Positions 1,281-1,598 of a DNA stretch of 5,208 nucleotides are shown piece after piece. The DNA is from Deltaproteobacteria bacterium. Its GTDB lineage: Bacteria; Desulfobacterota; Syntrophia; Syntrophales; UBA2210. A model generated the notes under the pieces. That model searched no databases. It was not told the DNA's origin and worked only from the letters and a program-made list of their open reading frames with translations. The first letter of the stretch is position 1. Every line of letters starts with the position of its first letter. The stretch is taken from positions 1-5,208 of the forward strand of contig JAFCZZ010000141.1 in assembly GCA_019314085.1 (NCBI GenBank), read 5' to 3'. A program made the translations under genes and the position numbers.

Positions 1281-1598
1281 ATGATTACAAAGAAAATGGT
1301 CACCGCACTGCTTTTGTGCGTACTGCTCGTTGCCCTTTCCCAGGTATCCGCTGCCGCCGTAAAAACCTATGACCTGAAGGTCTCCGGGTGCTGGAACTGA
1401 TCAGGTAAGGCCAGGATAAGTTCTATCCTGAAAAAAACAGATGTCATTGCCTTCAAGCTGAACTCCTCGACATCCACGGTCAGCGTGAAGTTTGAAGACT
1501 CGATGATAGGCATAGACAAGATTGTAGACCGAATCGAAAAGGGGAATTTCCGGGTAAAGAAAGTGGTTGAAGGGCCTACCCCGAAGAGCAGCCCCTGA
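1281..1598 (+). CDS. Exported HMA-domain (MerP-like) selenoprotein with a CxxU motif; TGA at 1398-1400 read as selenocysteine
   Basis: Read through codon 40, this is a 105-residue protein ending at TGA 1596-1598. Residues 1-24 or 1-26 form a Sec-type signal peptide: basic ITKK, a hydrophobic core of Leu and Val, then VSA-AA as a likely cleavage site. Residues 28-94 have the beta-alpha-beta-beta-alpha-beta pattern of a heavy-metal-associated domain: strand TYDLKVSG, motif C37-W-N-U40, helix SGKARISSILKK, strand VIAFKLN, strand TVSVKFED, helix GIDKIVDRIEKG, strand FRVKKVV. HMA domains bind soft metals (Cu, Hg, Zn) through CxxC; here the second Cys is UGA. C37 is the only Cys in the mature protein, so C37 and U40 would be the metal ligands or a selenenylsulfide redox pair in the periplasm. 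The gene follows the PpiD-like gene by 3 nt. The alternative is a nonsense-mutated pseudogene, but the TGA sits exactly on the motif, the frame is intact for 65 more codons, and a SECIS-like hairpin follows. Metal specificity cannot be told from the sequence. Confidence 0.87.
1398..1400 (+). other. In-frame UGA codon predicted to encode selenocysteine (U40)
   Basis: TGA replaces the codon for the second Cys of the HMA CxxC motif, giving C-W-N-U. Cys-to-Sec exchange at a redox or metal-binding CxxC is the common pattern in bacterial selenoproteins. Two neighbouring genes use TGA as a true stop and TGG encodes Trp in this window, so general TGA reassignment is unlikely. Without Sec insertion, translation would give a 39-residue product that is little more than the signal peptide. 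Confidence 0.85.
1412..1430 (+). promoter_or_regulatory. Bacterial SECIS element (predicted mRNA hairpin)
   Basis: CAGGATA (1412-1418) pairs perfectly with TATCCTG (1424-1430), a 7-bp stem closing a 5-nt loop, AGTTC (1419-1423). The loop begins 18 nt after the UGA. Known bacterial SECIS elements lie within the coding region just after UGA, with a small apical loop carrying a G in its first two positions; this loop has G at position 2 followed by U, resembling the GU step that SelB recognises in E. coli fdhF. The hairpin is also coding (residues 44-50). Role inferred from position and geometry. Confidence 0.75.

Follow-up and report, generated by a model that had tools for sequence, protein, structure and literature searches.

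A likely HMA-type selenoprotein family with a conserved SECIS-like hairpin in Syntrophales bacteria

The 5,208-nt contig JAFCZZ010000141.1 of a Deltaproteobacteria bacterium (GenBank assembly GCA_019314085.1; Syntrophales), analysed at full length and here called the window, carries at 1281–1598 a gene with one in-frame TGA (1398–1400) that, as predicted from sequence, most likely represents a real selenoprotein family. This conclusion is based on the open frame, the conserved UGA, a selenocysteine insertion sequence (SECIS)-like hairpin with compensatory pairs, the selenocysteine (Sec) machinery of relatives, the predicted fold and Cys homologs in which the hairpin is absent. Sec coding in the window gene is held with high confidence, and the joint claim of selenoprotein coding plus an HMA (MerP/CopZ-like) fold is considered very probable.

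Reading frame and relatives

The frame starts at ATG 1281, continues for 38 further codons to TGA 1398–1400 and then for 65 sense codons to a second TGA (1596–1598). The initial annotation, which was made from the sequence alone, had described a frame broken only by the first TGA, and this was confirmed by the frame check. The blank of about 345 bases that it reported between the neighbouring genes spans 1278–1622 (345 bases), and the ribosome-binding site it placed just upstream corresponds to a GGAGG 11 nt before the ATG, within the 3′ end of the upstream gene. The features of the gene are as follows.

1281–1598, + strand: predicted selenoprotein coding sequence, 105 residues, Sec at residue 40, terminal TGA (from the frame and its conservation in relatives)
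1398–1400, + strand: in-frame TGA, probably read as Sec (residue 40; context G-C-W-N-TGA-S-G)
1412–1430, + strand: SECIS-like hairpin, stem 1412–1418/1424–1430, loop 1419–1423 (AGTTC) (from structure and family pairing)
1265–1269, + strand: GGAGG, probable ribosome-binding site (from sequence)
1281–1358, + strand: probable signal peptide, residues 1–26, A-A-A end (read by eye; N-terminal helix 4–19 in the predicted model)
1359–1571, + strand: predicted HMA-fold domain, residues 27–97 (from the predicted model and a family profile match)

Export of the product is assigned with moderate confidence, from the N-terminus as read by eye.

The read-through protein (P0001) was used as query in a genome-collection scan, which depends on short exact stretches and overlooks distant relatives. 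One match was confirmed (L001, Syntrophaceae bacterium UBA6078, Syntrophales), with 58% identity to the window protein, the frame kept and TGA at the same codon; a 51-nt match in a viral contig (L002) was taken as chance and rejected as a relative. Within the order of UBA6078, the single protein matched 92 of 155 genomes, nearly all listed matches having one internal TGA, so that homologs with TGA at this codon, a check proposed in the initial annotation, were found. A 13-row profile matched 114 genomes of the order (E up to 0.001) and gave a strong TGA-bearing match in 102. The difference is made up of eleven genomes with weak matches only (best E > 1e-13), many of these lying in long frames that resemble metal ATPases, and one genome (G142) without TGA. 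The fetched loci were reduced to 113 distinct ones: 107 in the Sec set, which the window joins, five other forms (L094, L101, L122, L135 and L148), and L152, a TGA-bearing Sec member at a contig start and outside the pattern window.

When 395 genomes were drawn from the phylum, 15 had a match at 1e-10, including four from outside the order. The class of one outside match yielded 27 matches in 22 of 85 genomes (24 with TGA, one with Ser (L193) and two long ATPase-like frames), and the class of another yielded 8 matches in 7 of 12 genomes (3 with TGA and 5 canonical GMTC-type HMA proteins without TGA). The distinct TGA-bearing members thus number 135, with 108 in the order set (the window among them) and 27 outside the order; having been collected as TGA-bearing, they say nothing on the frequency of Sec loss. 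L152 and a gene split over two contigs in G062 (L163, L170) are not in this count. Two TGA-bearing copies stand in tandem at L186 (G597:C35:445-1087), and G546 has three copies of the gene.

A frame that decays after the TGA had been named as a sign against the assignment. No such decay was seen: among 8 close relatives, the ratio of nonsynonymous to synonymous differences (pN/pS) beyond the stem was 0.25–0.73, and below 1 in all 28 pairs. A further explanation, that a sequencing error or pseudogene made the TGA a true stop with the rest decayed, has the TGA itself in its favour and nothing more, and is dismissed as extremely unlikely on this ratio and on the recurrence of the TGA in 135 distinct members. 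The selenoprotein interpretation was upheld overall; the initial annotation did not include the hairpin, the wide spread of the family or the greater constancy of Sec compared with the CxxC pair.

SECIS-like hairpin and selenocysteine machinery

The 7-bp stem of the window starts 11 nt after the UGA, and its loop lies 18 nt after it. In 93 CxxU members the hairpin is found at a fixed distance (+14 to +32, the first base of the UGA being 0), and at least 6 of the 7 stem pairs form in 93 of 93. Compensatory variation is seen at the innermost pair (A-U 81, G-C 10, C-G 1, G-U 1). Paired cells amount to 96.6%, as against 24–49% with slid partners, 67.6% (standard deviation 1.3) after recoding with the family's own codon use, and 90.3% (standard deviation 0.65) when synonymous codons were redealt within columns, where 0 of 1000 permutations reached the observed value. 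Stem pairing also accounts for odd codons: Arg at codon 5 is AGG in 89 of 93, against a background of 31 of 202 for the remaining Arg codons of these genes, and Ile at codon 6 is ATA in 68 of 69 cases, compared with 119 of 606 elsewhere. In 15 CxU members the UGA is one codon farther upstream of the helix, and the stem stays with the protein, 3 nt farther from the UGA. The hairpin is absent in five homologs without Sec.

The limits for bacterial-type SECIS elements (bSECIS), as drawn in Fig. 2A of PMC13188914, are a loop of 3–9 nt, a stem of 4–16 bp, an early G, a spacing of 16–37 nt and a minimum free energy of at most −7.5. The window hairpin falls within the four bSECIS limits of that source, and 105 of the 108 order-set members fall within the energy limit. 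An Rfam search of 1200–1700 returned one chance-level match only.

The initial annotation had also proposed a look for the Sec machinery in the same genome; twelve relatives carrying the gene were searched for it. Over cut-off were selA in 12/12, selD in 11/12, selB in 11/12 and tRNA-Sec in 10/12, and each selD has an internal TGA of its own. As a discriminator of carriers from non-carriers, selB was rejected as too common (over cut-off in 141/155 genomes of the order).

On the proposed mechanism, the UGA at 1398–1400 together with the bacterial-type SECIS hairpin at 1412–1430 would recruit SelB with Sec-tRNA, the UGA would be decoded as Sec, and translation would continue to 1596–1598. The product would be exported and adopt the HMA fold, with the selenol just before helix 1, in the metal-binding loop of HMA proteins and near a Cys.

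Several points weigh against this reading. Three of the 108 order-set members miss the bSECIS energy limit, and a crude 6-bp hairpin test, passed by 125 of the 135 members, was failed by 10 (8 of them outside the order's CxxU members) and passed by 258 of 1605 arbitrary TGAs. The permutation by codon redealing ignores relatedness and needs the slides and recoding alongside it. Among the 102 TGA-bearing genomes, 9 are without selB over cut-off (of 14 such genomes in the order), tRNA-Sec is below cut-off in 2 of the 12 carriers, and the Sec machinery is known from relatives only, not from the window's own genome. The window protein alone stays under the curated cut-off of PF00403 (18.6 vs 24.8 bits).

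HMA fold, related families and possible function

In the predicted model the fold is beta-alpha-beta-beta-alpha-beta and the motif precedes helix 1, and five relatives pass the PF00403 cut-off (26.7–33.9 bits); the predicted HMA assignment rests on the family profile, these other members and the modelled fold. The TGA of the window falls on the codon for the second Cys of a CxxC of the HMA type. The initial annotation had proposed Sec in place of this Cys, which holds for 95 of the 135 TGA-bearing members (CxxU) and fails for 40, where the partner Cys is shifted (CxU 28, CU 3) or absent within four residues upstream (9: L181, L182, L191, L196, L203, L171–L173 and L147); two of these nine have a Cys directly after Sec. 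Among members collected as TGA-bearing, Sec is thus the constant residue and the Cys partner is variable. Five CxU loci (L127, L130, L138, L140 and L149) run into an extra C-terminal domain, with HMA over cut-off in all five; the thioredoxin-like family PF14595 is over cut-off in L127 and L149, reaches 24.8 vs 25 in L130 and is not listed for L138 and L140.

None of the NCBIfam models was over cut-off on the members scanned (six singly, two in another scan, and 13 by E-value only). MerP (TIGR02052; PDB 1osd, 1afi) reached at best 46.3 vs a cut-off of 92.55 bits on the six members scored singly, and neither P0001 nor P0002 had a MerP entry among the matches with E up to 0.1; in contrast to MerP, the window family has Sec in the motif, GC rather than GMTC, and no recurrent mer neighbours. 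The metal-binding (seleno)protein NF041115 is likewise an HMA-like selenoprotein and is matched by 5 of 13 window-family members at E up to 0.01, but its best score was 30.7 vs 95 bits (6 members), its motif is UxxU where the window family has CxxU or CxU, and its model of 74 positions lacks the N-terminal part. The MerT/CopZ fusion-like heavy metal transport selenoprotein NF045683 likewise carries Sec in a metal-type motif, with an HMA-like domain adjoining; its best score was 21.9 vs 375 bits (6 members), and the window family is without the MerT part. The MerT-type 'putative mercuric transport protein' corresponds to PF02411 with C/SxxU, a family absent from the Pfam listings of P0001 and of the 13 members.

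In Table 1 of the 2026 review PMC13188914 (119 families and subfamilies by its authors' count), the NF041115-type UxxU protein appears as 'putative mercuric reductase'; an exported MerP-like CxxU entry was not found in that table, nor does 'Mercuric transport protein MerP' have a row of its own there. The latter name, with 2 sequences, is given in the 2008 Global Ocean Sampling selenoprotein table (PMC2398784), in a row without a motif; compared by this table row, that selenoprotein may or may not be related to the window family. The window family is not covered by a named family in the searches made and, judged from its sequences, is probably a new family-level variant among HMA-type selenoproteins.

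Confidence in the function overall is low to moderate. The fold, the position of the site and the nearest named families speak for a periplasmic protein whose selenolate traps or shuttles soft metals or metalloids, e.g. Hg(II), Cu(I) or As(III), and to this function we would give about an even chance. The 40 members without the CxxU pair weigh against it, as does the finding that no metal genes recur beside the gene in the neighbour clusters. The same selenoprotein could instead be redox-active, with a Cys-Sec selenenylsulfide couple, or Sec alone, reducing periplasmic disulfides or peroxides. This main alternative is tentative: Sec is kept where the partner Cys has moved or been lost, a thioredoxin-like domain follows in some of the CxU loci, and a PpiD-like folding factor precedes the gene in the window's clade. 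However, the HMA fold is known for metal binding and is not known as an oxidoreductase fold, several of the fused thioredoxin-like domains have Ser for the motif Cys (FFGTWS among FFGTWC/S), and the PpiD link is confined to that clade.

Given that Sec is conserved more strictly than the Cys that accompanies it, one-selenol chemistry is possible. A broader proposal is that these proteins form a widespread group of exported selenoproteins, as yet without a name, whose HMA fold has changed from a two-thiol metal site to a one-selenol active site, with Sec constant, Cys optional at variable distance and a thioredoxin-like domain sometimes fused. We regard this as rather doubtful; if true, a metallochaperone scaffold would here have given rise to a novel type of periplasmic selenoenzyme. 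The question raised is why a metallochaperone fold keeps selenium where the classical CxxC pair is lost.

Database copies and gene neighbourhood

Protein searches with P0001 and with L012 alone gave no match under the set limits, and the 13-row alignment search found 212 database proteins, the best 120 of which (P0003–P0122) were used for residue counts. At the Sec site, 82 of these 120 have Trp (77 by pattern, 5 by eye) and 38 have Cys, 35 of the latter as GCRPCG. The Trp copies suggest that gene callers got past the Sec codon by switching to genetic code 4. A genuine code 4, with TGA as Trp, would agree with these copies, but is very improbable: two neighbouring genes of the window and the selenoprotein gene itself terminate with TGA, Cys stands at the site in homologs without TGA (38 of the 120 proteins, L094 and L101), and a SECIS-type hairpin follows the UGA. 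As four neighbouring frames stay open with TGA as stop and two end in TGA, TGA is taken to be a stop generally in the window.

The Cys homologs, also proposed as a check in the initial annotation, include L094 and L101, which are paralogs of Sec loci in the same genomes (L094 with L093 in G026, L101 with L028 in G051) and may be used as natural controls. The loci without Sec are L094, L101, L122, L135, L148 and L193, together with canonical HMA proteins (L174–L178) and ATPase-like frames (L199, L200); in L193, a close relative of L192 and L195, Sec is replaced by Ser (PACTS). In a tree of 153 sequences plus 2 outgroup rows, built on a short alignment, the Cys forms do not group together but occur at several positions (6 parsimony changes), and no direction is claimed. 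The gene, which has a strong TGA-bearing match in 102 of the order's 155 genomes, has been missed by ordinary open reading frame (ORF) calls or deposited as a hypothetical protein carrying Trp. In many syntrophic bacteria a likely selenoprotein family whose SECIS signature is very clear would have been missed or misread, and a search for W-for-U proteins might uncover other missed selenoproteins.

The genes flanking the predicted selenoprotein gene in the window are the following.

3–1277, + strand: PpiD/SurA-like peptidylprolyl isomerase, cut by the window start, ending 3 nt before the ATG
1623–2966, − strand: HI0933-type flavoprotein, convergent (from a family match)

The PpiD/SurA-like neighbour is found at 7 loci of the window's clade and the HI0933-type flavoprotein at 8 loci, both counts including the window. 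The largest neighbour group has a divergent maf (62 loci), yggS beyond it (55) and a convergent mannose-1-phosphate guanylyltransferase-like gene (59), names that were checked on one locus (L028). With no metal partner among them, these neighbours were discarded as a guide to function. Because the gene stands alone beside them in the largest group, they suggest a housekeeping periplasmic task, not a mobile resistance operon.

The minus strand of the window encodes the HI0933-type flavoprotein, an enoyl-CoA hydratase and DNA polymerase I. At 2864–2966 the mechanical ORF of the flavoprotein overlaps the end of the enoyl-CoA hydratase ORF, and its true start is probably nearer 2876–2866.
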